The notes beneath the pieces are model-generated. The model ran no database searches, had not been told where the DNA came from, and worked only from the letters and a program-made list of their open reading frames with translations. A DNA stretch of 64,000 bases from Thermococcus sibiricus MM 739 (GTDB taxonomy: Archaea > Methanobacteriota_B > Thermococci > Thermococcales > Thermococcaceae). Every line of letters begins with the position of its first letter. Position 1 is the stretch's first letter. The position numbers and the translations under genes are program-made. This document shows positions 13,869-44,994 of this stretch, piece after piece. Where the stretch lies: contig NC_012883.1 of the NCBI RefSeq assembly GCF_000022545.1, forward strand, positions 984,276 through 1,048,275, read 5' to 3'.

Positions 13869-13897
13869 CCTCTCACCTAACGGGAGAAACAAAGCAG

Positions 13898-13910
13898 AGT
13901 TTATAACTCC
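13898..13910 (-). promoter_or_regulatory. TATA box of the PAPS reductase-family gene
   Basis: Minus-strand GAGTTATAAACTC, about 35 bases before the ATG at 13868. Confidence 0.5.
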
Positions 13911-14036
13911 TTTGGTTAGACTTTTCTGTATCTCAAAAAGAAAATAACCAGTATGCGAAACTTGTTGATAGAAAGTTCATTAAAAGTCCAACAGTTCTCC
14001 CCCACAAAATGCCTCTAATCTTGGAATAGACCAAAA

Positions 14037-14046
14037 ACTTTATAAG
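14037..14046 (+). promoter_or_regulatory. TATA box of tRNA-Lys
   Basis: ACTTTATAAG, with A-rich BRE bases before it. It is about 26 bases before a start just 5' of the tRNA at 14072. Confidence 0.65.
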
Positions 14047-14071
14047 CGCATCATAATCTCTAACTTATCGA

Positions 14072-14149
14072 GGGCCGGTAGCTCAGCCTGGTTAGAGCAC
14101 CGGGCTTTTAACCCGGTGGTCGCGGGTTCGAATCCCGTCCGGCCCGCCA
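14072..14149 (+). tRNA. tRNA-Lys (anticodon TTT), CCA encoded
   Basis: Full cloverleaf. The acceptor stem GGGCCGG (14072-14078) pairs with CCGGCCC (14139-14145). The anticodon stem CCGGG/CCCGG encloses loop CTTTTAA with anticodon TTT, and the T arm GCGGG-TTCGAAT-CCCGT follows. G is the discriminator base and CCA is encoded in the gene at 14147-14149. No intron. The GC-rich stems are as expected for a hyperthermophile. Confidence 0.98.
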
Positions 14150-27483: not shown

Positions 27484-27547
27484 ATAACCCTCAGCGAGAA
27501 GTCGGTCATCACAACTCAGCTCACTCTTGTTCCAATCATCGGGTTAT
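27484..27547 (-). ncRNA. C/D box guide sRNA 3
   Basis: Read on the minus strand: terminal stem ATAACCC (27547-27541) pairing perfectly with GGGTTAT (27490-27484); a degenerate C box ATGATTG (27539-27533); D' box CTGA (27519-27516); 3-base spacer; perfect C' box GTGATGA (27512-27506); an 11-base guide (27505-27495); D box CTGA (27494-27491). A TATA box, TTTAAAAAGG (27575-27566), lies at the right distance upstream. The imperfect C box is the one weak point; the 7-bp stem compensates. Targets not identified. Confidence 0.75.
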
Positions 27548-27565
27548 GTATAATAACATCAAAAT

Positions 27566-27575
27566 CCTTTTTAAA
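27566..27575 (-). promoter_or_regulatory. TATA box of C/D sRNA 3
   Basis: Minus-strand TTTAAAAAGG, centred about 23 bases before the 5' end of the guide RNA at 27547. Confidence 0.5.
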
Positions 27576-27743
27576 TTCAAGGGTGACAGGAAACTCAGAT
27601 ATTATTCAGTTAATCTTTAATCCTTGACAATTTTTCAAAGTATGTTTTTGTAACTCTTTTTTGTGCTGTCACATTGACAAATACCAAAATCTATGTTTTA
27701 AGTCCATGTAAATCGTCTTTTGTCGAAATAGGGCAAGAGAAAA

Positions 27744-27795
27744 GTTTATTAACCCTCCAAGACATAGACACAATTGCTGATATTTGTACATCAGC
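27744..27795 (+). promoter_or_regulatory. Promoter and possible operator of the NSS transporter operon
   Basis: A BRE-like GAGAAAA with the TATA box GTTTATT (27744-27750) predicts a start near 27774. At that point sits a perfect inverted repeat GCTGAT-8 bases-ATCAGC (27776-27795). It could be a repressor site covering the start or a hairpin at the mRNA 5' end. Confidence 0.45.
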
Positions 27796-27831
27796 ATAGT
27801 TTTTAGTACAACACTATACGAGGTGAAATGA

Positions 27832-29400
27832 ATGGAGCAAAGAGATAGATGGGCAACCAAATTGGGTTTAATCTTAGCGATGGCAGGAAACGCAATAGGT
27901 CTAGGAAACTTCTGGAGATTCCCATACCAGGCCGCTGTGAATGGTGGCGGTGCATTCATGATACCCTACTTTGTTGCATTGTTCCTCCTCGGAGTCCCCA
28001 TCATGTGGGTAGAGTGGGTCACAGGTAGATATGGAGGTAAGTATGGGCACGGTACTTTAGGCCCAACATTCTACCTAATGGCTAGAGAAAGCTTGAAACC
28101 AAGAAGCGCTGTTATCTTTGGTATGATCGGTGGTATGTTAGCATTCTCAGTCACAACACTGCTTAACAGCTATTATCTGCACATTGTAGGATGGTCAGCA
28201 GCTTATACCTACTTCAGTATAACAGGAGCATACTTTGGAAAAGACTCCGTAGAGTTCCTTCTTGGCTATCTCAGCAACAATATGCAAGTGTTCATATTCT
28301 GGGGCCTTTCAGTTGCACTCCTTGGTATCGCAGTAGGCCAAGGTGTTAGCAAAGGTATTGAGAGATGGGTCAAGGTTATGATGCCTGCATTATATGTGGC
28401 AGCTATTTTATTGGTTTTAAGATCTCTCACTCTCGGTTCACCAGTGAAACCAGAGTGGAGTTCAATTAAAGGATTTGAATTCCTATGGGAGCCAAGATTT
28501 AGTGAAGTGACATTTAAGTCAGCTCTAGCAGCAGCAGGACAGATATTCTTCACTCTATCACTTGGTATGGGTATTATACAAAACTATGCTTCTTACCTAG
28601 GCCCAGAAGACGATGTAGCCCTCTCAGGCCTTGCAACAGTCTCACTTAACGAGTTTGCTGAAGTTATCCTCGGTGGTTCAATAGCCATACCAATAGCCTT
28701 CGCTTACCTAGGCCCAGAAAAGGCTATAGCAGGTGGTGTCGGTTTAGCATACATAGCATTACCAAACGTCTTTATGAGAATGCCTGGTGGACAGCTCTTC
28801 GGTGCTGTATGGTTCCTACTATTATGGTTCGCAGGATTCACGTCAGCTATAGCAATGTACAACTACCTAACAGCGTTGCTAGAGGAAGATCTTAAGATAA
28901 ACAGAAAAACCGGTGCAGCAATTGTGTTCATACTCTACTTGATCCTTGGTCTTCCAGTTGTCCTTGATCCAACAAAAGCAACACTTGACCTCTATTACCT
29001 AACAGAGCTTGATAACTGGGTTGGTTCATACTTGCTCGTCGTGCTTGGACTCTTCGATATCATAGTTGCAGTGTGGCTCTTCAAACCAGACAACTTCTGG
29101 GAGGAACTTCACAAAGGAGCGTACATTAAAGTTCCTGGCTGGATCAAACCTATTATTGTGTACATAGCTCCAATTTACACAATAATACTTCTATTAGGAA
29201 GCACAAGAGACTACTACAAAGCAGGCTACTTCAAGGCAGTGCCTGGTTACGTTGGTGCACCAGAATATGCTAACTGGGTCTGGTTTGCAAGAGGTATGAT
29301 GCTATTCATCCTCATCATTGGTGCCATTGAAGCATACTTTGCTATCAAGAAGAAGTACGCCGAAGAACTAGAAAAGAACGAGGTAATAGTAAAGCTTTGA
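27832..29400 (+). CDS. Sodium-dependent transporter, neurotransmitter:sodium symporter (NSS/SNF) family
   Basis: Imports an amino acid together with Na+. The 522 residues have 12 hydrophobic helices. Helix 1 carries the family hallmark GNAIGLGNFWRFPYQAA (Na+ and substrate sites, as in LeuT), followed by NGGGAFMIPYF. Helix 8 has SGLATVSLNEFAEV and helix 6 SLGMGIIQNYASYL, both typical. GAGGTGA precedes the ATG. It is followed at once by a one-helix MetS-like partner gene, so it resembles the MetP/MetS methionine or alanine importer type; the substrate is inferred. Confidence 0.92.
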   Translation: MEQRDRWATKLGLILAMAGNAIGLGNFWRFPYQAAVNGGGAFMIPYFVALFLLGVPIMWVEWVTGRYGGKYGHGTLGPTFYLMARESLKPRSAVIFGMIGGMLAFSVTTLLNSYYLHIVGWSAAYTYFSITGAYFGKDSVEFLLGYLSNNMQVFIFWGLSVALLGIAVGQGVSKGIERWVKVMMPALYVAAILLVLRSLTLGSPVKPEWSSIKGFEFLWEPRFSEVTFKSALAAAGQIFFTLSLGMGIIQNYASYLGPEDDVALSGLATVSLNEFAEVILGGSIAIPIAFAYLGPEKAIAGGVGLAYIALPNVFMRMPGGQLFGAVWFLLLWFAGFTSAIAMYNYLTALLEEDLKINRKTGAAIVFILYLILGLPVVLDPTKATLDLYYLTELDNWVGSYLLVVLGLFDIIVAVWLFKPDNFWEELHKGAYIKVPGWIKPIIVYIAPIYTIILLLGSTRDYYKAGYFKAVPGYVGAPEYANWVWFARGMMLFILIIGAIEAYFAIKKKYAEELEKNEVIVKL

Positions 29401-29410
29401 GGTGATAAAA

Positions 29411-29515
29411 ATGAAAGGAAGTGCTTTAGCATTTATGGCCCTTGCATGGGGCATAATATTCATCTGGATGTACTTGGCAGTAAGCAAATTGCTCAAGGCA
29501 GAGCAAAAATCTTAA
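29411..29515 (+). CDS. MetS-like small subunit of the NSS transporter
   Basis: A 34-residue single-helix protein, MKGSALAFMALAWGIIFIW then MYLAVSKLLKAEQKS. One membrane helix with a basic C-terminal tail matches the small MetS-type subunits that bacteria need for activity of the NSS transporter MetP. It begins 10 bases after the transporter stop codon, with GGTGAT 4-9 bases before the ATG. Too short for normal gene finders. A T-rich terminator follows (29518-29535). Confidence 0.85.
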   Translation: MKGSALAFMALAWGIIFIWMYLAVSKLLKAEQKS

Positions 29516-29557
29516 ATCCTTTTTCTTTCCTTTTAATATTTAGAGGAGGTGTTTTTT

Positions 29558-30286
29558 ATGAAAAGTCCAGACCTTCTTAAAGAAACTGCAGAAATTTTAG
29601 AAGAAGTTGAAGAAAGGATTAGAAATCTAAATTCACTCTCACCGAGGAAAAAGCAAAATGCTTTAAACCAAATAAGAGAGGCAAAGGAAAATTTTAGAAA
29701 AATGGCAAGTGAGGTTGTTATTGACAATGATGAACTCGCCAGTTTCTTTTTAAAACGTGCAAATAAATTGAAGAACAGCACAAATGATAAAACAATAGAA
29801 AAACTTGGCGAAAAAACTTATATGAAAGACGTAGAAGCCATGTATAAATATTCCAAGGCCGCCCCATATGATTTTGCGGGATATATGAAATATGTAAATA
29901 GGGGATATAAAGCCTATGTGTGGGGAATGGTAAGCTTTTTTGTTGTAACAGCATTCTTGCCGTTGGAATTCAAGATAACCTCCCTCATTCTGCTCATTCC
30001 AATAATCCTCTCTCTATTAAGCTTGAGAAAGAGAGGTTATAGTGGCCTTATGTTAGCATTTGCTGCAATCCCTATACCACTAATAACTGGTGCTCTAGCT
30101 CTCAGGGCATATATGGAAGTTTTTATAAATCCCACTGCACTTCAAGAAGCTGCACAAGGTTTAGGAGTCTCTACAAGTACTGCTCAACTCATTGCAGGCG
30201 TAATGGTACTCTTTGGAATTGCAGAGGTATTCCTCTTAAGCTACGCCATTTACATGTTCTATAAGCACAGGCACGCTTTCCTTTGA
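29558..30286 (+). CDS. Membrane protein of unknown function
   Basis: 242 residues. An N-terminal coiled-coil-like soluble part of about 115 residues (LLKETAEILEEVEERIRNL, KQNALNQIREAKENFRKM) is followed by four hydrophobic helices (about 120-140, 145-160, 165-185, 210-235). No catalytic motif is seen and I do not recognise the family. ATG 29558 is supported by AGGAGGT at 29543-29549; an in-frame GTG at 29549 overlaps that site. It lies between the NSS operon and the convergent PII gene. Confidence 0.68.
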   Translation: MKSPDLLKETAEILEEVEERIRNLNSLSPRKKQNALNQIREAKENFRKMASEVVIDNDELASFFLKRANKLKNSTNDKTIEKLGEKTYMKDVEAMYKYSKAAPYDFAGYMKYVNRGYKAYVWGMVSFFVVTAFLPLEFKITSLILLIPIILSLLSLRKRGYSGLMLAFAAIPIPLITGALALRAYMEVFINPTALQEAAQGLGVSTSTAQLIAGVMVLFGIAEVFLLSYAIYMFYKHRHAFL

Positions 30287-30315
30287 AAAAAAAGAAAGCC
30301 CTCAGTAAAGGGCTT
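30285..30315 (-). terminator. Hairpin/poly-T terminator of the PII gene
   Basis: On the minus strand AAGCCCT-loop-AGGGCTT (30315-30309 / 30302-30296) is followed by a T run (30293-30286), the form of a bacterial intrinsic terminator. It overlaps the PII stop codon. Confidence 0.65.
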
Positions 30316-30619
30316 CGTTTCCTCTCTCCTCCGTTCTTATCCTTATTGCTTCATAAACCGGTAGAATGAATATTTTGCCATCCCCCGGGATGCCCCTTCT
30401 TGCATTCTGGATTATCACATTAACAACCTTCTCAACATCTTCATCCTTAACGACAATCTCAATTTTCATTTTTGGCATAAGCTCATAAGGGGGCACCCCT
30501 CCTTGTACACCCCTACCTTTAACTGGATAAGCTGTCATAGGGACTATACCCATTTGTTTTAGGGCCTTATGAACCCTATCAAACTCCTCTTCCCTAACAA
30601 TTGCTTCAATTTTTTTCAT
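30302..30619 (-). CDS. glnB: PII-family nitrogen signalling protein
   Basis: A trimeric sensor of 2-oxoglutarate, ATP and ADP. The 105 residues start KKIEAIVREEEFDRVHKAL, then the T-loop base KGRGVQGGVPPYELMPKMKIEIVV and the B-loop RRGIPGDGKIFILPV, both part of the ATP site. The T loop is short and lacks the usual modified Tyr, so it is not controlled by uridylylation. No amtB is adjacent; the neighbours are gdhA and an amino acid importer, so it may respond to overall nitrogen state. ATG 30619 follows GGTGG at 5 bases. A hairpin terminator ends the gene. Confidence 0.88.
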   Translation of the reverse strand: MKKIEAIVREEEFDRVHKALKQMGIVPMTAYPVKGRGVQGGVPPYELMPKMKIEIVVKDEDVEKVVNVIIQNARRGIPGDGKIFILPVYEAIRIRTEERGNEALY

Positions 30620-30668
30620 AAATTCCACCAAATATAATAGGGCAGAAGAAAAAATAAACTTTTCTAAA

Positions 30669-30980
30669 TCAAATCGAGAGATATTTTAATGCTTTTTCAA
30701 GTCTCTTCTTTGGAATTCTAGTTTCTTTTGCCAGCTTTGTTAAATCAACATTTTTAAGATCTTCAACACTTCTGATTCCGGCTTTTTTCAGTTTTTCAAC
30801 TGTCTTTGGCCCTATTCCCTTTACGGCCAAAAGCTTTTTCTCAAAGTCTTTCTCCTCTTTTTCTAAATCTCTTTCCTCTTTTGTTGTTTTTTCAAGCTGT
30901 AGAGTGGCCTTACTGATTTCCCACTTTCCCTCTAACTTTTGAGCACTTGCGATGCTTATATTTTCTCTTACTTCTTTTTT
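30669..30980 (-). pseudogene. Out-of-frame helix-hairpin-helix tail of the branching enzyme
   Basis: Reading the minus strand from the A6 run at 30980-30975 in the frame one base off the branching enzyme gives about 100 further residues without a stop: KEVRENISIASAQKLEGKW, a charged helix, then a classic helix-hairpin-helix VKGIGPKTVEKLKKAGI and IPKKRLEKALKYLSI, ending at TGA 30669-30671. One extra A in the A6 run would join it to the enzyme and give about 666 residues, the size of the Thermococcus kodakarensis enzyme, which has such a tail. It is either a real frameshift mutation, slippage, or a sequencing error. Confidence 0.85.
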
Positions 30981-32668
30981 ATTTCCTTTAATTCTTTTGA
31001 TTCTTCTAATGGAGCCTCAGGTGGCTCGATATACTCCGAAACACTTGGAGATTCTTCACTTACATAAACATCAATGTCTATGGAGCTAAACGGGTTGTCT
31101 TTTTCTTCAATTTCTTCCAAGAATTTCATATCCTTAAATTCTCCGCTTTGGAAGTACTTCTCCAGAGCATTTGCCAAGTGATGGAAACTGTTTGCGTGTT
31201 CCAAAAGGCGCCTCTTCCCATACTCTTTTGCCTGACTCGTGGTAACAAGGAATGGCCAATCACTGCTTTCAATAAGGAGCAATTCTCTTCCAAGTTGCTC
31301 TAAAACTCTATCGCCAAATTTATCCTTGTGCAAGTATTTACTCGCAAGAGCTACCATTCTTCTCTCCGCAAGATGTATATGCTCCCACATCCACTCCACT
31401 TCTGGATTCCACCAGGTGTAATGGGTTCCATACATCCCCCAGGATCCTTCTGGAAGCTCGATCTCATATCTTTCTCCCTGGTAGTTCTCTAAGAACTTTG
31501 AAATTGTTATAGTTTCTATATTTTCTTCTGCCATTAACTCCAGCACTTTTCCAAGCCATTTAACACCCTCAAACCACCAGTGGCCGAAGAGCTCTGTGTC
31601 GTAAGGTGCCACGACTATTCCCTTAGCTCCATGTTCTCTCTCGTATTCCTCTAAGAGGGATTTAACTAAACCTACAAAATGTTTTGCATGCTCTTCCACT
31701 CTTTCTAAAGCCTTCTCAGGAACATAAGGCTCTTTTTCTCCTAAACCAATAGCCTTGGATGTAATTCTCCAATATTGGCCGCCACTTTTCTCTGCTTTTT
31801 TGTGGAATTCTCTATACCAAAAGTCTCCTGGATAGCCTATGTCTGCACTCCACACTTGAAGACCAGTCTCTCTGTTCCTAGCGAATACAGCTATATTAGT
31901 TCCTTTTATGAAGTAGGGCCTCAGTGTGGACTTTTTAGTTTTCGCAGGGAGTATTTTTCCATAACCAAAACTTGCTGGACCTTCATCTATCAAATGACTT
32001 TCAACAAAGAAAAACTTCAACCCGTGCTTTTCCAGAAACTTCTCGAGTCCTTTTCTCCACACAATTTCTCCACTGCTTGGACTTTGCCAAAGCCCCTCTG
32101 GTCTATATGCACACTCCGGGAGCCATATTCCTTTTGGTTTTCTTCCAAAATGTTTCTCGTAAGTAAGAATACCATTGGTAATCTGTCCTTCAATTGCCTC
32201 ATCTCTCTCCAAAAGAGGCAGATACCCGTGGGTCGCGGCGGAGGTAATTATCTCAATGTATCCCTCATCTTGAAGTTGCCTAAAAACTCCCAATATGTCC
32301 CCGTTTATGTTTTTCCAATATTCATAAACCTCCATAAAGTACTTGATCATATACGAGATTGCGTTTTTAAGTCGTTCATCGTCATATTTCTCTAGGTCTT
32401 CTTGCATGGCCTTAAGCTTTCTCTCCATATATTGCTCAAATTCTTTCTTCATGTACTCATCTGCAAGTTGTTCTGCTAATATCGGTGTAATGCCGATCAT
32501 CAGTTGAAACTTCACCCCTTTTTTCTTGAACCTTTCAAACTCCATCAAAAGGGGTATGTAAGTCTCCGAGATTGCCTCAAAGACCCATTCTTCACCAAAA
32601 GGCCATTTGCCATGCTTCCTTACATAGGGAATATGGGTGTGAAAAACAAAAGTAAAGTAACCTTTCAT
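30968..32668 (-). CDS. GH57 1,4-alpha-glucan branching enzyme (truncated by frameshift)
   Basis: Makes alpha-1,6 branches in glycogen. The 566 residues cover the whole GH57 catalytic fold: FVFHTHIPYVRKHGKWPFGEEW at the start (motif 1), GYLPLLERD, nucleophile Glu in KGIWLPECAYRP, acid Asp in VVAPYDTELFGHWWFEG, and motif 5 in TWWNPEVEWMWEHIHLAERR. The frame then ends in KELKEIKKK at an A6 run, losing the helix-hairpin-helix tail found in the alternate frame (30669-30980). The core should remain active, as the tail is thought dispensable. A TATA-like CTTAAATACT lies upstream near 32705. A decayed second copy is at 37370-37705. Confidence 0.93.
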   Translation of the reverse strand: MKGYFTFVFHTHIPYVRKHGKWPFGEEWVFEAISETYIPLLMEFERFKKKGVKFQLMIGITPILAEQLADEYMKKEFEQYMERKLKAMQEDLEKYDDERLKNAISYMIKYFMEVYEYWKNINGDILGVFRQLQDEGYIEIITSAATHGYLPLLERDEAIEGQITNGILTYEKHFGRKPKGIWLPECAYRPEGLWQSPSSGEIVWRKGLEKFLEKHGLKFFFVESHLIDEGPASFGYGKILPAKTKKSTLRPYFIKGTNIAVFARNRETGLQVWSADIGYPGDFWYREFHKKAEKSGGQYWRITSKAIGLGEKEPYVPEKALERVEEHAKHFVGLVKSLLEEYEREHGAKGIVVAPYDTELFGHWWFEGVKWLGKVLELMAEENIETITISKFLENYQGERYEIELPEGSWGMYGTHYTWWNPEVEWMWEHIHLAERRMVALASKYLHKDKFGDRVLEQLGRELLLIESSDWPFLVTTSQAKEYGKRRLLEHANSFHHLANALEKYFQSGEFKDMKFLEEIEEKDNPFSSIDIDVYVSEESPSVSEYIEPPEAPLEESKELKEIKKK

Positions 32669-32773
32669 CTAGTATCACCGGGAGTGTTATTGTATCCAGA
32701 GTATTTAAGATTATCCCAAACAGAGTTGAACTGTAATTGATTACGACACAGGTTAGTTTTAAAGGAAAAAGGA

Positions 32774-33050
32774 ACAATCCAAGCCCAGAAGAGACTGGTT
32801 AAAGATCTGGTGTTTGGAATAGAGAGAAACCAGTGACAGTCTCAATAAAGGGCGTACTTCTCATGAAAGCCAACTCAAAATGTTACAAATGCTAATTCTT
32901 CGAACTCAGCAAAAACGAATTCGTCCTTGCAACTCAAATAAAGGGTTTCATGGTATACTTCAGGATGGAAGCAAGCAAAAACTGGATGAAGAAGTCTACC
33001 CAGAACTCTTGAGAGCTTTACTCGAATATCCCACATCCCACTCCTACTAA
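32774..33050 (+). pseudogene. Decayed copy of the gene at 39825-40265
   Basis: Translation in three successive frames gives TIQAQKRLVKDLVFGI, then VTVSIKGVLLMKANSKCYK, a TAA at 32893-32895, FFELSKNEFVLATQIKGFMVYF, then KLDEEVYPELLRALLEYP. The intact protein at 39825 has AIAQRELAKDLLFEI, VTLSVKGIMIAKSVSKTYN, FVEVTDNEFVLAVQMKGYVIYL and IIDEDAYPELVRALINHL at the matching places. So this is a paralogous copy broken by two frameshifts (near 32836 and 32975) and one stop. It fills most of the 395-base gap between the branching enzyme and asd. Confidence 0.85.
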
Positions 33051-33063
33051 CCCTCTTTCTTTT

Positions 33064-34068
33064 TTAGATATATCCCAGTTTCTTTGCCAGTTCTGCATTG
33101 AGCAGAGACCCTCCCGCGGCCCCGCGAACAAGGTTGTGACCGGTAATCACGTACTTAAAAGCCGAGTCACTCCCCTCCACTCTTCCCACGGTTACGGTTA
33201 ACCCCTTTCCTCTCTCACGGTGAAACCTCGGCTGGGGAACTTCAGTGTAAACAAGGGGTTTTTCGTAGCTCGGCAGACTGAGACTTTTCAGCGGATCAAA
33301 GGACTCAAAAGCTTCCTTTATCTTCTCAGTACTTCCGTGCTCAAGTTCTATAAAAACGGCCTCCGTGTGGCCATGCAGAACTGGGACACGTGTCGCTATT
33401 GCAGAGACTTCGAAGAGCGCTGGTTTTATCCTTCCATTCTCAATCTTTCCAAGAATTTTTCTGCTCTCGTTCTCAATCTTCCATTCCTCGCCACTTATGA
33501 AGGGAATCACATTGTCGTGAATTGCCAGCGCTGAAAGGCCGAAAAATCCTGCACCGCTTATGGCTTGCATTGTAGCCACGTGAACCCTTTTTATCCCAAA
33601 ATCTCTGAGAGGAGCGAGAGATACGGCCAAGATCGCCGTGGAACAGTTCGGGTTCGTTACTATGAAACCATTCCAGCCTTTCCTCTCACGCTGAACCTCG
33701 GTAAGCCTCAAGTGCTCTGGGTTGACTTCAGGAACCAGTATCGGCACGTCGTCGTCATAGCGGTGAACCCTCGCGTTGGTAAAAATGGGAATGTCTTTAG
33801 CGAGTCTCTCCTCAACATCCCCAGCCAGAGAAGCCGGAAGAGCATTGAAAACGAGGTCAACTCCCGGATCTTTGAGGAAGTCTTCCAAGGAAATGACCTC
33901 AAAATCTCTGAACTCCTCTGGAGAATCCTCGACCAGTTCACCATATCGAATTCCTGCCGAACGCTCCGATGCTACGAGTTTCTCAACTTCAAACCATGGA
34001 TGGCCCTCTAGAAGTTTCACGAAGGTTCTTCCAACCATGCCAGTCGCTCCAAGAACAGCTACCTTCAT
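33064..34068 (-). CDS. asd: Aspartate-semialdehyde dehydrogenase
   Basis: Reduces aspartyl phosphate to aspartate semialdehyde with NADPH, the second step towards threonine and methionine. The 334 residues have the Rossmann start KVAVLGATGMVGRTFVKLL, the catalytic Cys in FIVTNPNCSTAILAVSL, and the closing VTVGRVEGSDSAFKYVITGHN with RGAAGGSLLNAE. GAGGTGAT lies before the ATG, which overlaps the threonine synthase stop by 4 bases. It is the last gene of the lysC-thrB-thrC-asd operon. GC content is about 50%, above its surroundings. Confidence 0.96.
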   Translation of the reverse strand: MKVAVLGATGMVGRTFVKLLEGHPWFEVEKLVASERSAGIRYGELVEDSPEEFRDFEVISLEDFLKDPGVDLVFNALPASLAGDVEERLAKDIPIFTNARVHRYDDDVPILVPEVNPEHLRLTEVQRERKGWNGFIVTNPNCSTAILAVSLAPLRDFGIKRVHVATMQAISGAGFFGLSALAIHDNVIPFISGEEWKIENESRKILGKIENGRIKPALFEVSAIATRVPVLHGHTEAVFIELEHGSTEKIKEAFESFDPLKSLSLPSYEKPLVYTEVPQPRFHRERGKGLTVTVGRVEGSDSAFKYVITGHNLVRGAAGGSLLNAELAKKLGYI

Positions 34069-35243
34069 CGTATCACCTCTTTAAACGCATCAAGTGTTGG
34101 TTCTATTGGCTCAGGAAGTGTGAACCTGTTGAGAACAACATTTGGATCCTTCAACCCGTGACCTGTCGTTATGAGAACATAGCTTTCACTTCTATCAACC
34201 TCACCTATCTCAAGAAGCTTTATAAGTCCTGCCAGTGATGCAGCGGATGCGGGTTCAACAAACAGGCCTTCTTTACTCGCCAGTAGTTGTTGAGCCTGGA
34301 GTATTTCCTCGTCGCTTACGCTTTCAAATAGCCCCCCTGATTCTTTGACGGCACGCCATGCCTTGGGCCAGTTGGCAGGGTTGCCTATTCTTATGGCGGT
34401 TGCAACGGTCTCCGGCTTTTCGATAGGTTTAAACTTCTCCCCTGTTTTCCAAGCCCTCACGAGAGGGGATGCGCCTTCTGCCTGTATCCCCATCATTCTC
34501 GGGAGTTTCTCCGTTATTCCTTTCTCGTAAAGCTCCTTGAACCCCTTCCAAATTGCCGAGATGTTACCTGCATTTCCAACGGGTAGGACGATGTTGTCGG
34601 GTACGAAACCGAGTTGGTCATAAATCTCTAGTGCTATTGTCTTCTGACCTTCCAGCCTAAAGGGGTTTATGGAATTGAGCATGTAAACACCAAGCTTTGC
34701 GCTCGCTTCCACTACAACTCTGAGTGCATCGTCAAAGTTGCCTCTTACAGGTACAACCCTGGCTCCGTAAATTATAGCCTGTGCAAGCTTTCCAAGAGCT
34801 ATCTTTCCGCTAGGCACTAGGACATAAGCTTTAATCCCCGCCCTCGCTGCGTAAGCTGCCAAAGACGCTGATGTATTGCCAGTGGATGCACATATCACCT
34901 TGTCCATACCGAGTTCTAGGGCTTTGGAGACGCCAACTGTCATCCCTCTATCCTTAAAAGAACCCGTAGGGTTTGCTCCTTCGTTTTTGGCATATATTTC
35001 GACACCAAAGCCCTTTTCAAGGTTCTTGAGCTTGTAGAGTGGTGTTCCACCTTCATTCAGCGAAACCCTGCTCTTAACTGGTAGCCAACTCTTGTATTTC
35101 CACAGCGTTACATTCTTGCCGTCGAAGACGTCCTCTGCTCTATCGAGGTCCGTGACGACCTCAAGTAGCCCACCACACTCACAGCGGTAGCGGAGGTCAT
35201 TTTCGTCATATTTTCTTCCACACTCAATACACTTCAAAACCAT
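34065..35243 (-). CDS. thrC: Threonine synthase
   Basis: A pyridoxal-phosphate enzyme that converts O-phosphohomoserine to threonine. The 392 residues start with a zinc-ribbon-like CIECGRKYDENDLRYRCECGG, then the PLP lysine in GANPTGSFKDRGMTVGV, CASTGNTSASLAAYAARAG (phosphate loop) and VLPVGNAGNISAIWKGF. Length and motifs match the archaeal short form. Overlaps thrB by 10 bases and asd by 4, so translation is coupled across the operon. Shares the raised GC of the operon. Confidence 0.96.
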   Translation of the reverse strand: MVLKCIECGRKYDENDLRYRCECGGLLEVVTDLDRAEDVFDGKNVTLWKYKSWLPVKSRVSLNEGGTPLYKLKNLEKGFGVEIYAKNEGANPTGSFKDRGMTVGVSKALELGMDKVICASTGNTSASLAAYAARAGIKAYVLVPSGKIALGKLAQAIIYGARVVPVRGNFDDALRVVVEASAKLGVYMLNSINPFRLEGQKTIALEIYDQLGFVPDNIVLPVGNAGNISAIWKGFKELYEKGITEKLPRMMGIQAEGASPLVRAWKTGEKFKPIEKPETVATAIRIGNPANWPKAWRAVKESGGLFESVSDEEILQAQQLLASKEGLFVEPASAASLAGLIKLLEIGEVDRSESYVLITTGHGLKDPNVVLNRFTLPEPIEPTLDAFKEVIR

Positions 35244-36112
35244 ATGGCACCCCTTCCAACTTTTGTAACATAAACATCAGCCTTAATATCCATTCCGCTG
35301 AAAGTCTCAGCTATGACCTTCCCTATTTGGGCCACATCCTCTCCTATGGCAAACACTGCTGGGCCGGAACCGGAGACTGAGAAACCGTAAGCACCTGCTT
35401 CAAGTGCGGCCTCTCTTACAGTTTCATACCACTGCATGAGCTGTTTCCTGTATGGCAGGGCTATCCTGTCATCGAGAAGCCTCCCAACAGTCTGAAGGTC
35501 ATTTTCCTTTAGAGCGAGGATTAGAGATGCTGCTAGGGCGAGATTTCTAATAGCATCTTTCCTTGGGATTTTTGATGGAAGAATCTTTCTCGCCTCGCTC
35601 GTCGGAATTTCGATCGCGGGAAGAACCACCACAACTTCGAAGTTCACTGGAATTCTCCAGATCTTCAGTGGCTCGTAGGATTCTATAATCGTGAAGTCGC
35701 CATAGTAAGCTGGAATCACATTATCTCCGTGGACACTGCCCGAAGCCACTCGTTCTCCCTCCATTGCCGCCCGAAGTATCATCTCATCATCCTCAACACC
35801 AAGAACCTTTGCCATCGCAAGCGCTCCGGCCAGTGATGATGCTCCCGAGCTTCCAATCCCACTTTTGGGCCTTATCCCCTTGGTAAGTTTCATTTCTAAG
35901 GCGGTCTCCTCTCCCACCATTGCCGCGAGAGCTTTTGCCGAAACTATGGCAATATTGTTGGAATTCTCCGGTACTTGGTAGCCCTTGACTCTCACCATCC
36001 ATTCATCTGATTCCTTGAAGCTCAGCTCGTCGTAAGGCTTCCCTACACCTACACCAAAGACATCAAACCCTGGTCCAAAGTTAGCTATAGTCGCATGAAC
36101 TCGTACTTTCAT
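35234..36112 (-). CDS. thrB: Homoserine kinase
   Basis: A GHMP-family kinase that phosphorylates homoserine for threonine synthase. It has 292 residues from the ATG at 36112, chosen because GAGGTGGT lies 5 bases before it and the protein then begins MKVRVHATIANFGPGFDVFG like other ThrB proteins. The ATP loop is GIRPKSGIGSSGASSLAGA, with GFSVSGSGPAVFAI as the third GHMP motif. The first 32 bases overlap the end of lysC. Homoserine dehydrogenase, needed between Asd and ThrB, is not in the window. Confidence 0.95.
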   Translation of the reverse strand: MKVRVHATIANFGPGFDVFGVGVGKPYDELSFKESDEWMVRVKGYQVPENSNNIAIVSAKALAAMVGEETALEMKLTKGIRPKSGIGSSGASSLAGALAMAKVLGVEDDEMILRAAMEGERVASGSVHGDNVIPAYYGDFTIIESYEPLKIWRIPVNFEVVVVLPAIEIPTSEARKILPSKIPRKDAIRNLALAASLILALKENDLQTVGRLLDDRIALPYRKQLMQWYETVREAALEAGAYGFSVSGSGPAVFAIGEDVAQIGKVIAETFSGMDIKADVYVTKVGRGAIWF

Positions 36113-37118
36113 CAAAGACCACCTCATGGATTTCTCTAAGGGCGGGAACAAGCTCCTCCTTCTCGATGGTGAGTGAGAAGTACCCCCTTCCTCTTCTGCC
36201 TTTCCAACCTGGAAGTTTCTTCACACCGACAACTGCTATCCTAGCAATCTTCCCTTCGACACGGTGAACAACTATCGGCCACTCCTCCCCGAATTCAGAG
36301 ACAAGGGTCCCCATGTTCCAGTCTTCAGTCTTTCCGAGTATCAAGGGGATTCCTTGGAGCGGCTTGAGGGCTTCCGGGTGGAGAGCCTTCATGCCAAGCC
36401 TTGCCGCCAGCATGGCTCTGTCTCTTGATATGAAGTGAAAGAGTCTTGCCTCAGGTACAAGTCTCGGATCGGCAGTGTAAATACCCTCCACATCACTCAT
36501 TATCAGCACGGCCTTCGCTTTAAGCATCGCCCCTAGAGCAGAAGCAGTATAGTCACTTCCACCCCTGCCAAGCGTTGCGGTTCTTCCGTTAAGGTTACCT
36601 ATGAATCCAGTAACAACTGGAACTACCTTCTCTGTTAGTTCTCCCAGTTTTTGAACGTGAGGTAGGCTTGCTGAAAAATCAATTTTCGCATTTCCGAAGC
36701 TTCCACGAAGCATCAAAACCTCAGTAGCATCCAGAGAAAGTGCTGGAACCCCCTCATTCTCTAAGGCTTTTGCAAAGAGGGCTGCTGAGAGCTTTTCTCC
36801 GAAGGAAAGAATATAGTCTCTCCATGCAAGGTCATGGCGACGCTTGGTAATTGCCTTCTCTAGGTCGCTTAGAATCGGCTCTATATCCACCCCAAGCCTG
36901 TTAGCCATTTTTGAATGTTCTAGAATGATGCTTTCAAAGATACCCAAATCGGACTGCTCTGAAAGCTGTATCAACTTCTCTGTGACACCCTTAAGAGCAG
37001 AAACGACAACTACAAGCTTGCTTCCCTCTAGGAGATATTCAACTAACTTCAATGCGCTCCAAAACGAGTTCTTCACTGAGCTTCCTCCAAACTTTACTAC
37101 TCTGAGTTTCTCCATCAC
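36081..37118 (-). CDS. lysC: Aspartate kinase
   Basis: Phosphorylates aspartate, the first step of the threonine pathway. The 345 residues begin KLRVVKFGGSSVKNSFWSAL (amino acid kinase KFGGSS), with TATLGRGGSDYTASALGAML and VEGIYTADPRLVPEARLF for the nucleotide and aspartate sites. Only one short ACT-like region remains at the C-terminus, so feedback control may be weak or different from that of the usual 450-residue, two-ACT enzymes. The start is GTG 37118 or ATG 37115. First gene of the operon; no strong TATA box was pinned down. Confidence 0.93.
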   Translation of the reverse strand: MMEKLRVVKFGGSSVKNSFWSALKLVEYLLEGSKLVVVVSALKGVTEKLIQLSEQSDLGIFESIILEHSKMANRLGVDIEPILSDLEKAITKRRHDLAWRDYILSFGEKLSAALFAKALENEGVPALSLDATEVLMLRGSFGNAKIDFSASLPHVQKLGELTEKVVPVVTGFIGNLNGRTATLGRGGSDYTASALGAMLKAKAVLIMSDVEGIYTADPRLVPEARLFHFISRDRAMLAARLGMKALHPEALKPLQGIPLILGKTEDWNMGTLVSEFGEEWPIVVHRVEGKIARIAVVGVKKLPGWKGRRGRGYFSLTIEKEELVPALREIHEVVFDESTSSCDYS

Positions 37119-37875
37119 CCATAAATAATCACCACAGCTTAGGGAGTTTTTTAGAAGATATAAAGTTTTCCCGATTTTTTTCAGATTGATGGCAACAATT
37201 CCCAGTCTTTGATAGGAAATTTACAATGACTATGTGGAAATCTACCTCTCCAGTTGGATAGCTGACAGTACCCTAGAGATGTTTGTTCTACTGCTAACTA
37301 CCTCCCAGTGTATCGTGTTAAGGACACTCACATCCCCGAACTCTCTCTCCCGAGAAGGGGGCCGAGTTACTGGGCCTTCATCTATCAAATGGTTTTCAAC
37401 AAAGAAAAATTTTAGCCCGTATTTTTCCAAAAATTTTTTCTAAGTCCGTTCTTTACAAAACTTCACCAGTACCTGAACGCTACCTACCATTAACTATTAA
37501 AAATTAAAGTTTTTGTAAATCTCCCTCTCATCCCTACCTTAAAAGGCGAGGCCTTCAGTTGTAATCATCTGCAAGTTGCTCTGCTAAAATTAGTGTTATC
37601 CGAAAAGGGGTATGTAAGTCTCGGGTATACCCTCAAAAACCTACTCCTCACTAAAAAGCCATTTACCATGTAAGGAATATGGATATGAAGTGCAAAAGTA
37701 AAATTACAACCAAGTATTTAACATTTTTGCCCTTTTTGAAACAGTTTTGAGTCGACAAAATGATCTACAAGAATAAAATAGACTTTAATGGAAGAATTCT
37801 GTTTTTTGAGCAATTAATATTTCATAGAAAAAGGGTTTAAAAAGTATCCCTCTAATTACACCAGGTGAAAAGAGA
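37119..37875. other. 757-base region with no intact gene
   Basis: It holds the upstream side of the threonine operon (37119-37200, A/T-rich), an unassigned stretch (37200-37369), the wreck of a second branching enzyme gene (37370-37705), and the upstream side of the NEMF gene including the A/T-rich promoter zone around 37825-37850 (GGGTTTAAAAAG). Confidence 0.6.
37370..37705 (-). pseudogene. Decayed second copy of the GH57 branching enzyme (N-terminal part)
   Basis: On the minus strand 37430-37374 encodes EKYGLKFFFVENHLIDEGP, against EKHGLKFFFVESHLIDEGP in the intact enzyme at 32050-31976. The bases at 37372-37425 match 31980-32033 with few changes. A second block, 37565-37705, matches 32455-32662 (shared features: CATCTGCAAGTTG, AAGGGGTATGTAAGTCTC, GGAATATG). 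The parts between are deleted or scrambled, and stops and frameshifts are frequent, so it cannot code. It lies on the far side of the threonine operon from the intact gene. Confidence 0.85.
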
Positions 37876-39828
37876 ATGAAACAAGAAATGAGCAGTGTCG
37901 ACATAAAGTACATAGTGGAGGAGCTAAAAACCTTGGAAGGTGCTAGAGTCGATAAAATATACCAAGACAAGAACCGAGTTAGAATTAAACTACATACAAC
38001 GGGAGAGGGGAGAAACGATTTAATCATAGAAGCCGGTAAAAGGATTCATTTAACTACTTACATAAAAGAAGCTCCCCAGCATCCATCTTCATTCACAATG
38101 CTGCTCAGAAAGTATTTAAGCGGATCACGAGTGGAAAAAATAGAACAACACGATTTTGATAGAATTGTAAAGCTAAAAATTGGCAACTATACTTTAATTG
38201 CAGAACTTTTCCAGAAAGGGAATATAATATTAGTTGATGAAAACAACGTGATAATCTCTGCCATGAGATATGAAGAGTTTAAAGACAGAACAATAAAACC
38301 ACAACACGTGTACCTACTCCCGCCTGCAAGAGAGAATCCAGTTGACATCTTATGGGAAAACTTTAGGGAACTTATTTCCTCTCAAGATGTGGAGATAGTA
38401 AGAGCACTAGCAAGAAAACTCAATATGGGCGGACTATATGCAGAAGAAATCCTCTTAAGGGCCGGAATAGAGAAAACAAAACGAGCCAATGCTCTTGATG
38501 AAAATGAGCTTAAAGTTATATTTGAAAAAATAAAAGAGGTCTTCAATGCCCCTAAAAAGGCCAATATCATATACAAAAACGACAATCCTATAGACGTCGT
38601 ACCTATCGAGCTTAAATGGTATGAAAGTTATAAGAAAAAATTCTTCACTACCTTTAGTGAGGCACTTGATGAATATTTTGGAAAGATTCTTCTTGAGAGT
38701 GCAAAGATAGAAAGAACAAAGAAACTTCAGAATAAGAAAAGACAACTCGAAGCCACTCTTAGAAAACAAGAAGAGATGATAAACGGATTTAAGAACCAAA
38801 TACAAGAAAATCAAGAAATTGGAGACTTGATATATACCAACTTCGCCTTTATTGAGAATCTACTGAAAGAGCTTTCAAAGGCTGTAGAAAAACTTGGATG
38901 GAAAGAATTCAAAGAGAGAGTAGAAAATGGCAAAAAATCTGGGAATAAAATTGCTCAGATAATCAAAAACATAGACGCTAAAGAGAAGGCAGTCACAATT
39001 GAACTTGATGGAAAAAAAGTAAAACTCTATTTAAACAAAAGTGTTGGAGAAAATGCAGAAATCTACTATGAAAAAGCCAAAAAAGCAAAACATAAACTCG
39101 AAGGGGCCCAAAAAGCCCATAAAGAAACACTAAAGAAAATCAAGGAAATAGAAAAACTAATAGAAGAGGAGGAGAAAAAAGAGCTTAGCGTGAGGAAGCT
39201 CGAAAAAAGAAAGAAGAAGTGGTTTGAAAAGTTTAGGTGGTTCTTAAGTAGTGAAGGATTCTTAATAATAGCTGGAAAGGATGCCACAACGAATGAAATT
39301 GTAGTTAAAAGATATATGAGTGAAAACGACCTCTATTGTCATGCTGATATTTATGGTGCCCCCCATGTAGTAATAAAAGATGGTAAAAAAGCTGGAGAAA
39401 AGACACTATTTGAAGCCTGTCAGTTCGCCGTTTCAATGTCAAGAGCTTGGAAAGAGGGATTATACTCCGGAGATGCTTACTGGACAGACCCCAACCAAGT
39501 TACAAAAAAAGCCCCAAGTGGAGAATATCTTGGCAAAGGAGCATTCATGGTTTATGGAAAGAGGAACTGGATGCATGGCTTACCCGTAAAGCTCGCTGTT
39601 GGAATAGTGCAATACGAGGAAGAGAAACTACCTATGTGCGGGCCGGTGGAAGCGGTAAAAGCCCATACTGACAAATACATTATTATTCGTCCAGGAAGAA
39701 TGAAAAAAAGCGAATTTGCAAAAAAGTTAGCGAAAATTCTAGAGAGATGTGGATACAAAGTTGATCTTGATGAGCTTATGCAAATTCTTCCTCCTGGCAA
39801 TAGCGAAATTGTGGAGGTGATTGAATGA
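37876..39828 (+). CDS. NEMF/Rqc2-family ribosome rescue protein
   Basis: A 650-residue archaeal relative of Rqc2/NEMF/FbpA, which bind stalled large ribosomal subunits and recruit tRNA. The N-terminal NFACT-N domain starts MSSVDIKYIVEELKTLEGARVDKIYQ. Helix-hairpin-helix and long coiled-coil regions lie at about 260-330 and 390-440 (LQNKKRQLEATLRKQEEMING; KETLKKIKEIEKLIEEEEKK). The NFACT-R domain is near 455-560 (WFEKFRWFLSSEGFLIIAGKD, NDLYCHADIYGAPHVVIKDG). GGTGA precedes the ATG. It is followed with a 4-base overlap by the 146-residue gene. Confidence 0.92.
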   Translation: MKQEMSSVDIKYIVEELKTLEGARVDKIYQDKNRVRIKLHTTGEGRNDLIIEAGKRIHLTTYIKEAPQHPSSFTMLLRKYLSGSRVEKIEQHDFDRIVKLKIGNYTLIAELFQKGNIILVDENNVIISAMRYEEFKDRTIKPQHVYLLPPARENPVDILWENFRELISSQDVEIVRALARKLNMGGLYAEEILLRAGIEKTKRANALDENELKVIFEKIKEVFNAPKKANIIYKNDNPIDVVPIELKWYESYKKKFFTTFSEALDEYFGKILLESAKIERTKKLQNKKRQLEATLRKQEEMINGFKNQIQENQEIGDLIYTNFAFIENLLKELSKAVEKLGWKEFKERVENGKKSGNKIAQIIKNIDAKEKAVTIELDGKKVKLYLNKSVGENAEIYYEKAKKAKHKLEGAQKAHKETLKKIKEIEKLIEEEEKKELSVRKLEKRKKKWFEKFRWFLSSEGFLIIAGKDATTNEIVVKRYMSENDLYCHADIYGAPHVVIKDGKKAGEKTLFEACQFAVSMSRAWKEGLYSGDAYWTDPNQVTKKAPSGEYLGKGAFMVYGKRNWMHGLPVKLAVGIVQYEEEKLPMCGPVEAVKAHTDKYIIIRPGRMKKSEFAKKLAKILERCGYKVDLDELMQILPPGNSEIVEVIE

Positions 39829-40265
39829 TAACACTCTATGCAATAGCCCAAAGGGAACTTGCGAAAGACCTGCTTTTTGAAATAGATGATGAAGTCGTTA
39901 CCTTATCTGTTAAAGGAATTATGATAGCCAAAAGTGTTTCAAAAACATACAACTTCTCTTTTGTGGAAGTTACAGATAATGAGTTTGTTCTAGCAGTTCA
40001 AATGAAGGGGTATGTGATCTACTTGGGACTTGAAAGTGATGAGATAATAGATGAAGATGCGTATCCTGAACTGGTAAGAGCCTTAATAAATCATCTCTTG
40101 TCTAGTCTTCATAACCTGGTTAGAGAAGCTGAAAAAGAATATCAAGGAAAGGCTGACTTGCTTTTGGATGACAATATGAGTGCGGAAATGAAAGAGTTCT
40201 TCTATGAGCTACTTCTCAAACATCAACGGGGTTTACCTACTCACGAACAGGTCGATGTGGCATGA
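39825..40265 (+). CDS. Conserved hypothetical protein coupled to NEMF
   Basis: 146 residues: a beta-rich N-terminal half (LLFEIDDEVVTLSVKGIMIAKSV, FVEVTDNEFVLAVQMKGYVIYL) and a helical C-terminal half (PELVRALINHLLSSLHNLVREAEK; AEMKEFFYELLLKHQRGLP). No known motif. It overlaps the NEMF gene by 4 bases behind GAGGTGATTG, so it may act in the same ribosome-rescue process; that is inferred from position. A decayed copy exists at 32774-33050 beyond the threonine operon. Confidence 0.78.
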   Translation: MITLYAIAQRELAKDLLFEIDDEVVTLSVKGIMIAKSVSKTYNFSFVEVTDNEFVLAVQMKGYVIYLGLESDEIIDEDAYPELVRALINHLLSSLHNLVREAEKEYQGKADLLLDDNMSAEMKEFFYELLLKHQRGLPTHEQVDVA

Positions 40266-40304
40266 GCAAAGGATTTTTAAGCCTCAGGAGTGAGGAGAAG
40301 AAAC

Positions 40305-41387
40305 ATGAAAGAGACAAATTACTATTCATACGTTGTTGGTGAGCTTCCAAAAGGATGTAAACTCTGTGTCAAGGGCACAAAATTAGTACTATTCACCACC
40401 GGAATATGTCCTAGAGAGTGCTTCTATTGTCCTCTTAGTCCCTGGAGGAGAGAAGATGTTAGTTATGCAAATGAACGGCCGATAAAAAATGTCAATGACA
40501 TCATAGAAGAAGCAAAAATCCAGGAAGCGTTAGGAGCGGGTGTTACTGGAGGGGACCCACTCTCAAGAATAGATAGAACTGTCAAGTACATTAAAACACT
40601 GAAAGAAAATTTTGGAAAGAAATTTCATATTCATTTATATACAACCGGCCTTCTTGCAACAGAGGAGAACTTAGGAAAACTCTACGACGCTGGTCTTGAC
40701 GAAATTCGATTTCATCCAGATATTTTTAATCCAAACTCTAATATCTTTCAAAGGGAAATAGAACACATAAAAGGCGCCTTTGACTTTGAATGGGATGTTG
40801 GAGGGGAAGTTCCTGCGTTTCCGGGACAAGAAGAGAGAATAAAGTGGTATGCCGAATTTTTAGATAAACATGGGGCAAAATTCCTAAACATAAATGAGCT
40901 TGAATTTAGTGAAACTAATCTTGAGGCCCTGCTATCAAGAGGATTTAGGACAGTAAGTGATGAGAGTTCTGCAATAAAAGGAAGTTTAGAATCTGGATTG
41001 ACAATTCTGCAATGGGGTGAAAAGAATACGTCTCTGAATTATCACCTCTGTACAGCCAAACTTAAAGATGCAGTACAACTCAAAAATCGGCTTAAAAGAA
41101 TGGCAAAAAACGTCGCCAGATCCTACATGGAGATAACCCAAGATGGGACACTTAAATTTGCAGTGGCTGAGTATGAGGACCTTATGGAGCTCTATGATCT
41201 CCTCGTAAATGAGGCAGAGGTTCCAGAAGAATGGCTCTACCTAAATCTGAAAAAAAGAAGGATTGAAATGCCCATAGAAGTTGCAGAAGAACTTGTCGGC
41301 GCTGTAGAAGGGGATGTAAAGTTTTATGTGGTTGAAGAATATCCCACATGGGATAGAATTGAAGTCGAGAGAATTCCGTTATCATAA
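40305..41387 (+). CDS. Radical SAM protein (COG2108-like)
   Basis: 360 residues from the ATG at 40305 (GTGAGGAG 7 bases before). The iron-sulfur motif is CPRECFYCPL (CxxxCxxC, about residues 35-42), followed by GGDPL for SAM binding and a TIM-barrel order of strands (KKFHIHLYTTGLLAT, LDEIRFHPDIF, WDVGGEVPAFPG). It resembles the archaeal group described as related to pyruvate formate-lyase activating enzyme. The substrate is unknown. A TATA-like GGATTTTTAAG at 40271-40281 gives it its own promoter. Confidence 0.85.
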   Translation: MKETNYYSYVVGELPKGCKLCVKGTKLVLFTTGICPRECFYCPLSPWRREDVSYANERPIKNVNDIIEEAKIQEALGAGVTGGDPLSRIDRTVKYIKTLKENFGKKFHIHLYTTGLLATEENLGKLYDAGLDEIRFHPDIFNPNSNIFQREIEHIKGAFDFEWDVGGEVPAFPGQEERIKWYAEFLDKHGAKFLNINELEFSETNLEALLSRGFRTVSDESSAIKGSLESGLTILQWGEKNTSLNYHLCTAKLKDAVQLKNRLKRMAKNVARSYMEITQDGTLKFAVAEYEDLMELYDLLVNEAEVPEEWLYLNLKKRRIEMPIEVAEELVGAVEGDVKFYVVEEYPTWDRIEVERIPLS

Positions 41388-41463
41388 TCTTTTTCCTGAC
41401 CTTCCTTAATGATCATTCAAACATCTATAAAATAACAAAATGAGATTATAAAAAAGAGAAGAT

Positions 41464-44400
41464 TCATCCAACCTTCTCTATACCTATTTTTGCCTCCACT
41501 TCTGGCCACTCGACTACATATCCCCTTGGCTCTTCAAACTTAACTTCAATAGCCCGTGTTTCTCCCTTTATGTAATCAAGCATCTCTTCGAGAAGTTCTT
41601 TGTTTTCCTCCGTTGTCTCAACGTAAGCCATTATCCTATCATTTACGTCTAGATCCAGTTGTTTTCTCATCTCCTGAATTCTCCTTACAAACTCCCTCGC
41701 TAAGCCCTCCGTCATTAATTCCCTAGTGATGATCTTGTCAACAAAGACTTTTCCATGATCAAATTCTTCCCCTATTAAGAACTCTGGAAGCTCTTCTTCC
41801 ATGATTATGTGTTCCTTCTCAATCGTAAACTCCTTATCTCCTACTTCTACCTTGAGCTTTCCTTGCATAAGTCTCTCATAAAGTTCTTTGCCATTCTGCT
41901 CACTTATCCACTTTGCAACTACCTTTGCATCTCCCTTGAAATGAGGTCCAAGTTTAGCAAAGTTGGGCTTTACTTTTATTTCCCTCTCAATTTTTGCCAC
42001 TTTGACCTCCTTAGCATTCAATTGATCTCTTAAAAGCCGGTTGAGTCTCTCTACAGCTTTCTTAGTTATTTCATCTTCAGTTTCTACTATTACTTGCTTT
42101 ACAGGGTAGCGAAGTTTTATTTTAGCTTTTTGTCTTGCTGCTGAGCCAGCTTCTACTATCTTTCTAACTATTTCCATCTCTTTTTCAAGATCTCCATCCA
42201 CCCAGCTTTCATCTTTTTTCGGCCAATCTTCTAAATGAACACTTTCTTTATTGCTAAATGGCCTTATTAGGTTTTGATAGATTTCTTCAGTTATGTACGG
42301 TGTAAAGGGAGCCATTAGCCTGAGCAAGACATCAAATATTTTCCAAAGAGTCCAGTAAGCCGCTAATTTATCAGGATCATCTCTTTCAACCCATAGCCTT
42401 TTTCTTATGACTCTAACATACCATCTGCTGAGATCCTCTATAATGAAGTTTTCTATTCCTCTAGTAGCTTTTGTTAGATAGAAACTCTCTAGGCCATCTT
42501 CCACAGTACTGATTAGATTATTAACCTTCGAAAGTATCCACTTGTCTTCCTCTCTAAATGGAAGTTCCTCGGGATTAAGTTTAGTAGGATCAAAGTTATC
42601 CAGGCTCATGTACGTTGAGCTCAGTATATAGACATTCCATAGTATGTTGAGCATTCTCTTAACTTGGGCCAGACCTTTCCAGCTGAATCTAAGATTCTCC
42701 CATGGAGTAGTTGCCCAAAGCATATAGAACCTAAACGGATCTCTACCATCTTTTTGAATAACATCCTCAGGCCTTATTATATTCCCAAGGCTCTTACTCA
42801 TCTTGTCTCCTTTTTCATCTAGGACATAACCATGCATTGCCACTTTTCTGTAGGGGACTGTGTCAAAAGCCACAACTGAAGCTGCCTGCTGGGAGTAGAA
42901 CCACTTTGTAACCTGATCTTCTCCTTCTACAATGAAGTCTGCTGGCCATAGCCTCTCAAATAGATCTTTTCTCCTTGGATAATCTAAAGATGCCCAACTT
43001 GCTATTCCACTATCAAACCATACATCGAGCACATCTTTGACACGTTTCATTTCCTTGTTGTTTACTTTTATAACAAAGGCATCAACGTATGGTCTGTGAA
43101 GATCCTCTGGCCCTAGTTTTTCTTCTATGACTCTAAGCTTTTCGTCATAACTCTCTGGAAGTTCTATTCTCTCACCATTAACTTCAATGGCTACTGAAAG
43201 CTCAACAAGTTCTTCAAAAGTACCTACTATGTATATCTCCCCATCTTCACTACTCCATATTGGGAGGGGTATTCCCCAATATCTTTGCCTTGAGATACAC
43301 CAATCACCTGAGTGCATGACACCGTTGTCATACCTTATCTTTACCCAATCGGGATACCAAGTGACTTTTTTGTCATTTTCTTCTATTATTTTGTCCTTAA
43401 CTTTGCTTATCTTAAGAAACCATTGATCAGTGGCCCTAAATATGAGGGGTGTTTTACAACGCCAGCAGTGCGGATACTTGTGTTCTATTGTTCCTGCTTT
43501 GAGGAGAAGGCCCTTTTCTCTTAGGTATTCTACTATCTCTGGATCAGCATCTTTAACGAATTTGCCCTTCCACTTTCCTTCATAGTACCTTCCTTCATCA
43601 TCAAGGGGTGAATAAATTGGAATTCCATACTGTTTTCCTATTTCAAAGTCTTCTTCACCATGGCCTGGAGCTGTGTGAACTAATCCAGTACCCTCTCCAA
43701 GAGTTACATGTTCACCGAGTATCAATTTATGGGCCCACTTGTATTTCTCTCTAAATTCTTTCTGTCTTGGATATTCCTCTAAGAATGGATGCACATAGCG
43801 GAGCCCTTCCAGTTCTTCACCCTTGAATTCTTCCACTATCTCCCCTTTAGCTCCAGTTTCTTCGAGAATTCTCCCAACAAGTGCCTTTGCTACTATCCAA
43901 TATTCTTCTTTCCCTTCATGAGATACCTTCACCTTTGCATACTCATATTCCGGATGAACTGTAACGGCCAAGTTGGCTGGAAGAGTCCATGGCGTAGTTG
44001 TCCATATTAGAACATATTCGTTATCTTTCCCCTCTACTGGGAATTTTACATAGATACTAGGATCTTCTCTTATTTTGTACTCTCCTCTTACTTCATGCTC
44101 TGCTAAAGCCGTTTCACATCTAGGACACCAGTGGAGAACCCTTTGGTCTTTTTCGAGAAGACCATTTTCCCATGCCCTCTTTAAAGTAAACCATGCAGAT
44201 TCTATATACTCATTTTTGATTGTCATGTACGGATTATCCCAATCCATCCAAACTCCGAGCATTTTAAACTGCTCTGTCATGATTTTAAGATTAGTTAAAG
44301 CAAAATCCCTACACTTCTTTATGAAGTTCTCAACTCCCACCTTCTCTTCTATATCTTTCTTGTATTTCAATCCTAGGGCCTGTTCAACTTTAACTTCTAT

Positions 44401-44676: not shown

Positions 44677-44994
44677 ATCAAAAACCTCCTACAGTTTATA
44701 GAATAGACTATGTTAGTAGAATAGCCCAAGGAATCATGGGCAAAATGCAAAGCAAAGGATAAAACACTCCCCCCTCATGGGCATCGGTCAAAATTGTGGG
44801 GTTTTGTTTATAAATCTTTTGCCAAAACTTAACAACAAATAATGAAAAACAAGCGTAAGTATTCGCTTCTGTAAGTCTCTCTTCTTCGGGCCTCCCCCTT
44901 AACTTCAATATTAACTCTTTGGTGTTAAAACTGGAGATAATTTTATAAACCTCGCTAAGATACTCATCTACACTTTAATATCTCGGTGAAAAGC
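44677..44994. other. Divergent promoter region between ileS and DUF401 gene
   Basis: The minus-strand TATA box TTTATAAA (44814-44807) serves ileS; its leader contains the hairpin GCCCA-TGATTCCT-TGGGC (44741-44724). The plus-strand TATA box TTTTATAAA (44941-44949) serves the DUF401 gene. The open frame 44708-44908 on the minus strand overlaps the promoter and is not taken as a gene. Confidence 0.55.
44807..44814 (-). promoter_or_regulatory. ileS promoter TATA box
   Basis: TTTATAAA preceded by AAAAGA (BRE-like) on the minus strand; predicted start near 44786. Confidence 0.6.

Follow-up and report, generated by a model that had tools for sequence, protein, structure and literature searches.

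The threonine operon at 33064-37118 of our window is recently acquired foreign DNA whose composition and phylogeny both depart from those of its host, Thermococcus sibiricus MM 739, and the gene remnants on its two sides are probably the scar of an import between species: a mosaic of DNA from three sources, joined at one end through homology and at the other illegitimately. The window is the whole stretch of 64,000 nucleotides that we analyzed (positions 984,276-1,048,275 of the single-contig genome, 1,845,800 bp), and coordinates refer to it unless another locus is named. The features needed to follow the argument are listed below; gene 39825 is named after its start.

27489-27543, minus strand: C/D-box sRNA sR58 (Rfam RF01308, 80.9 bits).
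27832-29400, plus strand: SNF-family transporter, sister to G074 (tree 96/97); a different gene stands here in G083.
30968-32668, minus strand: intact 1,4-alpha-glucan branching enzyme (BE, GH57), foreign allele (NF041133, 1108 bits).
32646-32780, plus strand: g4-type BE-NEMF spacer, holding the BE first codons and promoter and the leader of the deleted NEMF (aligns with L009, L015 and G019).
32782-33035, plus strand: decayed g4-type copy of gene 39825 (tblastn E 1.8e-11; sister to Thermococcus L009, 96/90).
33064-34068, minus strand: asd, aspartate-semialdehyde dehydrogenase, g4 type (TIGR00978, 453 bits; 87% to G052).
34065-35243, minus strand: thrC, threonine synthase, g4 type (TIGR00260; 92% to G052).
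35234-36109, minus strand: thrB, homoserine kinase, g4 type (NF002288; 82% to G052).
36081-37118, minus strand: aspartokinase, first of the g4 pair (ask1; NF006234, 494 bits; TIGR02078, 320 bits; groups with g4 ask1 in the tree).
37119-37332, minus strand: operon upstream region and 3'-end remnant of the donor's second aspartokinase (74-75% to G052).
37333-37364, no strand: junction stretch without assignable origin, matching neither the donor nor the native side (illegitimate joint).
37365-37711, minus strand: decayed native BE gene, codons 1 to ~233 with internal deletions (85% to G083 BE).
37876-39828, plus strand: intact native NEMF/RqcH-type ribosome rescue protein (NF041120, 767 bits; 93% DNA identity to G083).
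39825-40265, plus strand: intact native gene 39825 (clade with G079/G083/G084/G076).

The host belongs to g1, which we take to be a genus-level group that includes the T. litoralis group. The largest genome group, g4, is a genus-level group other than the host's and apparently represents Thermococcus proper, and g3 presumably fits Pyrococcus. Closest to the host are G082 and G083, with 91-96% identity across three control regions in which the remaining g1 genomes reach 71-85% over long stretches, and we used host identity to G082/G083 in these regions as the yardstick for native versus foreign DNA. Window positions 37500-44900 are mostly 85-94% identical in DNA to G076/G079, most of the remaining region being ~71-80% identical; this stretch, like 62.5-63.5 kb, is a recombination tract common to the host lineage and the G076/G079 clade. 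We dropped the idea that the right flank of the operon is a tract imported from G076/G079 once G082/G083 had turned out to be closest to the host across the genome. Elsewhere in the window, a DUF1464 gene (46206-47273, minus strand; GC3 ~0.62) is the strongest outlier in codon use; no counterpart was found near the locus in five g1 relatives, and it is probably another foreign gene. Many dispersed copies of a ~280-bp sequence (L138 3336-3614), perhaps a miniature mobile element, occur in G082, G083, G076 and the host genome.

The operon itself consists of four intact, adjacent open reading frames on the minus strand (asd, thrC, thrB and aspartokinase) that match curated threonine-pathway families; no ACT domain was found in the aspartokinase. 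In the thrC tree, the window copy is nested in g4. Operon GC is 48.8%, compared with 39% for host window genes and 58% for the G052 operon. The original prediction had proposed comparing the codon usage of the operon with that of the host, and the operon is an outlier, its four genes being among the window's five least host-like (GC3 z 1.8-2.4). The similarity to G052 extends upstream: 37119-37332 matches this genome and otherwise just two short scraps in one g3 genome, and the GATATAAAGTTTT element upstream of the imported operon is common to G052. Judged by its letters, GATATAAAGTTTT has the look of an archaeal TATA region when read on the strand of the operon. Of the g4 aspartokinase pair, the second member (ask2) survives only as a tail remnant (37250-37332) within this right relic zone, where the original prediction had missed it.

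Left of the operon, the remnants also point to g4. The spacer at 32646-32780 is 80% identical to G034 and stops 16 bp short of the G034 NEMF start codon, after which the match jumps at 32780/32782 directly into the 39825 coding sequence. Because the spacer ends just before that start codon, we infer that there was once a foreign NEMF copy, of which all but the leader has been deleted, whereas it had previously been supposed that the NEMF copy left no remains. The 39825 relic is without a start codon, truncated, and carries frameshifts and one stop. Spacer and relic together match many g4 genomes; g1 genomes match over no more than the first ~40 bp (the BE start) and a single 29-bp scrap. In the g4 genomes G063, G054 and G069, the gene order is NEMF, 39825, other genes and asd-thrC-thrB-ask1-ask2, and the left relics stand in exactly this order, contiguous with the operon. 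The stretch 32646-37332 thus derives from a contiguous chromosome segment of a Thermococcus-proper (g4) cell. Its exact donor is unsampled, because BE is absent from the sampled contig of G052, the closest sampled donor of the operon.

The intact BE next to this segment has yet another origin. It is sister to BE of G074 (tree support 100/100) and only 76% identical in DNA to that of G083, the host's closest relative, and is a foreign third-party allele from the T. litoralis group.

The right flank is native, because NEMF, gene 39825 and the BE relic all side with G083 by the control-region yardstick. The product of gene 39825 is a conserved protein of 146 aa, encoded beside NEMF, that found no match in Pfam/NCBIfam. 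In the BE relic (E ~4e-8), codons 1-40, 60-72 and 209-233 remain, with one stop and large deletions. It is sister to the G083 BE (85% over 273 columns, tree support 98/94), and it is 54-60% identical to most g4 BE genes, 64% to that of G064 and 75.5% to the intact BE on the other side of the operon. The corrected distance between the relic and G083 is 0.164 substitutions per site, and the NEMF genes of host and G083 differ by a dS of 0.31 and a total of 0.071; by rough arithmetic, the native BE may have lost constraint fairly soon after the host-G083 split.

The original prediction had described the flanks as complementary, with an intact BE and a decayed 39825 on the left and a decayed BE and intact NEMF and 39825 on the right, and had taken each pair as two copies from one duplication. 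The arrangement was confirmed, and aligning flank against flank as proposed, by an independent method, recovered direct repeats of 84%, 82% and 85% identity. The origin of the pairs is different: the truncated BE is native, the surviving BE is foreign and the 39825 relic is of g4 type. One recent duplication as the source of the BE pair is ruled out by the 75.5% mutual identity and by the different clades of the two copies. The site is empty in G074-G079, G081 and G083, BE standing directly upstream of NEMF-39825 in close relatives, and the donor order is found in g4. An arrangement of BE, NEMF, 39825 and the threonine operon without duplicates, which had been expected to argue for another history, does exist in g4, for example in G063; because g4 is the source group, it supports import and does not refute it.

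The two joints differ in kind. At the left joint, g1-type BE switches to the g4 spacer within the first BE codons, where donor and host have a run of bases in common, so that the joint falls at a homologous position. At the right joint, the ask2 tail is set against BE codon ~233, without homology and with 32 unassigned bp between them, a decayed stretch that blurs the exact position. The recipient DNA between the joints was not deleted; part of the anchor gene was repeated instead, both in T. sibiricus and in G080 (see below).

We therefore favor an import in which the incoming DNA, whether linear or circular, would have paired with the chromosome through the BE/NEMF neighbor, while its far end would have closed illegitimately onto another chromosome copy, landing inside BE and creating a second, truncated BE. 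Thermococcales have been described as polyploid (PMC12713403). The redundant foreign NEMF and 39825 copies would then have been deleted or have decayed, and likewise the truncated native BE. The third-party BE might have arrived with the import, from an already mosaic cell, or by later homologous exchange, and both orders are allowed. Against this reading stands the difference between the two BE copies: duplicating a single host gene in one step would not account for it unless an allele had been exchanged in addition.

In contrast to the decayed copies, all four operon genes are open, with dN/dS of ~0.04-0.15 relative to G052. Because the operon stayed open while unselected copies crumbled, it appears to have been maintained, probably retained by selection. 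A complete native threonine operon has also been kept, at 1.44 Mb in the host, with a thrC that clusters with those of G083, G082 and G076. The aspartokinase of this native operon (L065 10128-11183) is 72% identical to that of G083 and departs from the G082/G083 kinship of the rest of the operon, and for this reason the native operon seems to be itself a mosaic.

How far foreign DNA extends to the left of BE is uncertain, as the G082/G083 MAG contigs end there. To the left of the block, the glutamate dehydrogenase gene is native, and the alignment to G083 on this side of the scar breaks off sharply at 27543, its final stretch being sR58. In G079 (L102 ~13725-14135), truncated genes for glutamate dehydrogenase and MP29549 adjoin each other, the transporter between them having been deleted. 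In a variant of our explanation, a ready-made mosaic, an unsampled T. litoralis-group cell already carrying SNF-MP-PII-BE joined to the g4 segment, supplied ~9.8 kb (27543-37332) that was taken whole. The sharp end of G083 homology, the position of both SNF and BE as sisters of G074, and the meeting of BE with the g4 spacer at a homologous position are all consistent with such a transfer. However, G083 has its own, different transporter past 27543, so this edge may be a change in G083 and we did not adopt it as a certain import boundary; moreover, the MP and PII gene trees give no firm placement with G074, and no such intermediate genome was found. We consider this variant plausible but probably not the actual course of events.

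A second g1 species, G080, has acquired the same cluster independently. Its copy (L180, termed the met-threonine cluster; G080:C1:683000-697000) comes from a G069-like donor (83-89% DNA identity), has a GC of ~53%, and its ask1 and thrC are already broken. On one side of the cluster stands an intact L15e gene; on the other, the 3' end of L15e recurs as a 154-bp copy, followed by the native DNA downstream of L15e. The two L15e copies are 98% alike and host-type, the left copy being 93% identical to G078 and 82% to G069. Here, the L15e stop codon marks the homologous joint; the far joint is blunt and non-homologous, and no microhomology was found at it. The g4 genomes have L15e at the other end of the cluster from NEMF/39825. 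Two independent imports thus each landed beside a gene that neighbors the cluster in the donor, and each left a truncated native copy of that neighbor.

Both cases speak to the mechanism put forward in the original prediction, a single crossover with DNA that bears the threonine operon along with BE, NEMF and 39825, after which one of the two copies of each gene would have decayed; such DNA would be a circle or a re-circularized linear fragment. The gene order and the positions of the relics suit a tandem arrangement, and the repeats of ~690 bp in T. sibiricus and 154 bp in G080 compare with partial duplications of 109-950 bp in E. coli (PMC3240628), where single crossovers of shortened circles accounted for most duplications (PMC3240628). 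A single crossover, however, predicts a truncated BE that is donor-type up to the crossover, whereas the BE relic is native-type throughout, and both L15e copies of G080 are host-type, so that later gene conversion would be needed to rescue the model in both cases. The locus does record the integration of DNA with NEMF, 39825 and the threonine operon, but a plain single crossover followed by decay is an unlikely way to have produced it. That the operon came by a mobile element or plasmid and the BE and 39825 copies decayed in unrelated small events is highly improbable: mosaic tracts show that recombination is frequent in the genus, but no integrase, transposase or inverted repeats were found at the block edges, and the g4 ancestry of the left relics and their donor gene order, contiguous with the operon, contradict it.

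Returning to the favored reading, the two species might share a neighbor-anchored route, in which the donor's cluster-adjacent gene pairs with the corresponding gene of the recipient, and the opposite end closes illegitimately inside that gene on another chromosome copy. We propose this route tentatively and regard it as a rather doubtful generalization; if true, its hallmark would be a foreign cluster between intact and truncated native copies of the anchor gene, of which we have two cases, one for each flank of the donor cluster. Homology-facilitated illegitimate recombination (HFIR), known in naturally competent bacteria and E. coli, is predicted to produce deletions (PMC3240628). As in HFIR, one incoming end was joined by homology and the other without it, and a foreign block was added beside a homologous gene; the difference is that we observe an evolutionary scar in archaea, with the anchor gene partly duplicated instead of the usual predicted deletion. 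Campbell-type single-crossover insertion-duplication likewise places a foreign block between direct repeats of a homologous gene, but the repeat copies at our locus do not form the ordered pair of donor and host halves that it predicts. Atypical GC and phylogeny, together with a retained resident operon, are shared with xenologous cluster gains in Thermococcales, from which our case differs in that flanking relics record the mechanism and that two species gained the same cluster independently from opposite flanks. A literature search of incomplete coverage for this locus or this type of integration in Thermococcales found no match.

The event thus belongs to an ordinary class, gene import, and is unusually well preserved, with an informative parallel. 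Foreign clusters are usually known by composition or trees, and their entry route is normally lost; here, the relics of both neighbors survive, leaving the donor group, gene order, homologous joint and native copy all readable. T. sibiricus carries two threonine operons that differ in origin, and one of its core glycogen genes has been replaced by a foreign allele. The entry from the other flank in the sister species makes the neighbor-anchored rule testable across archaeal genomes and in transformable Thermococcus.
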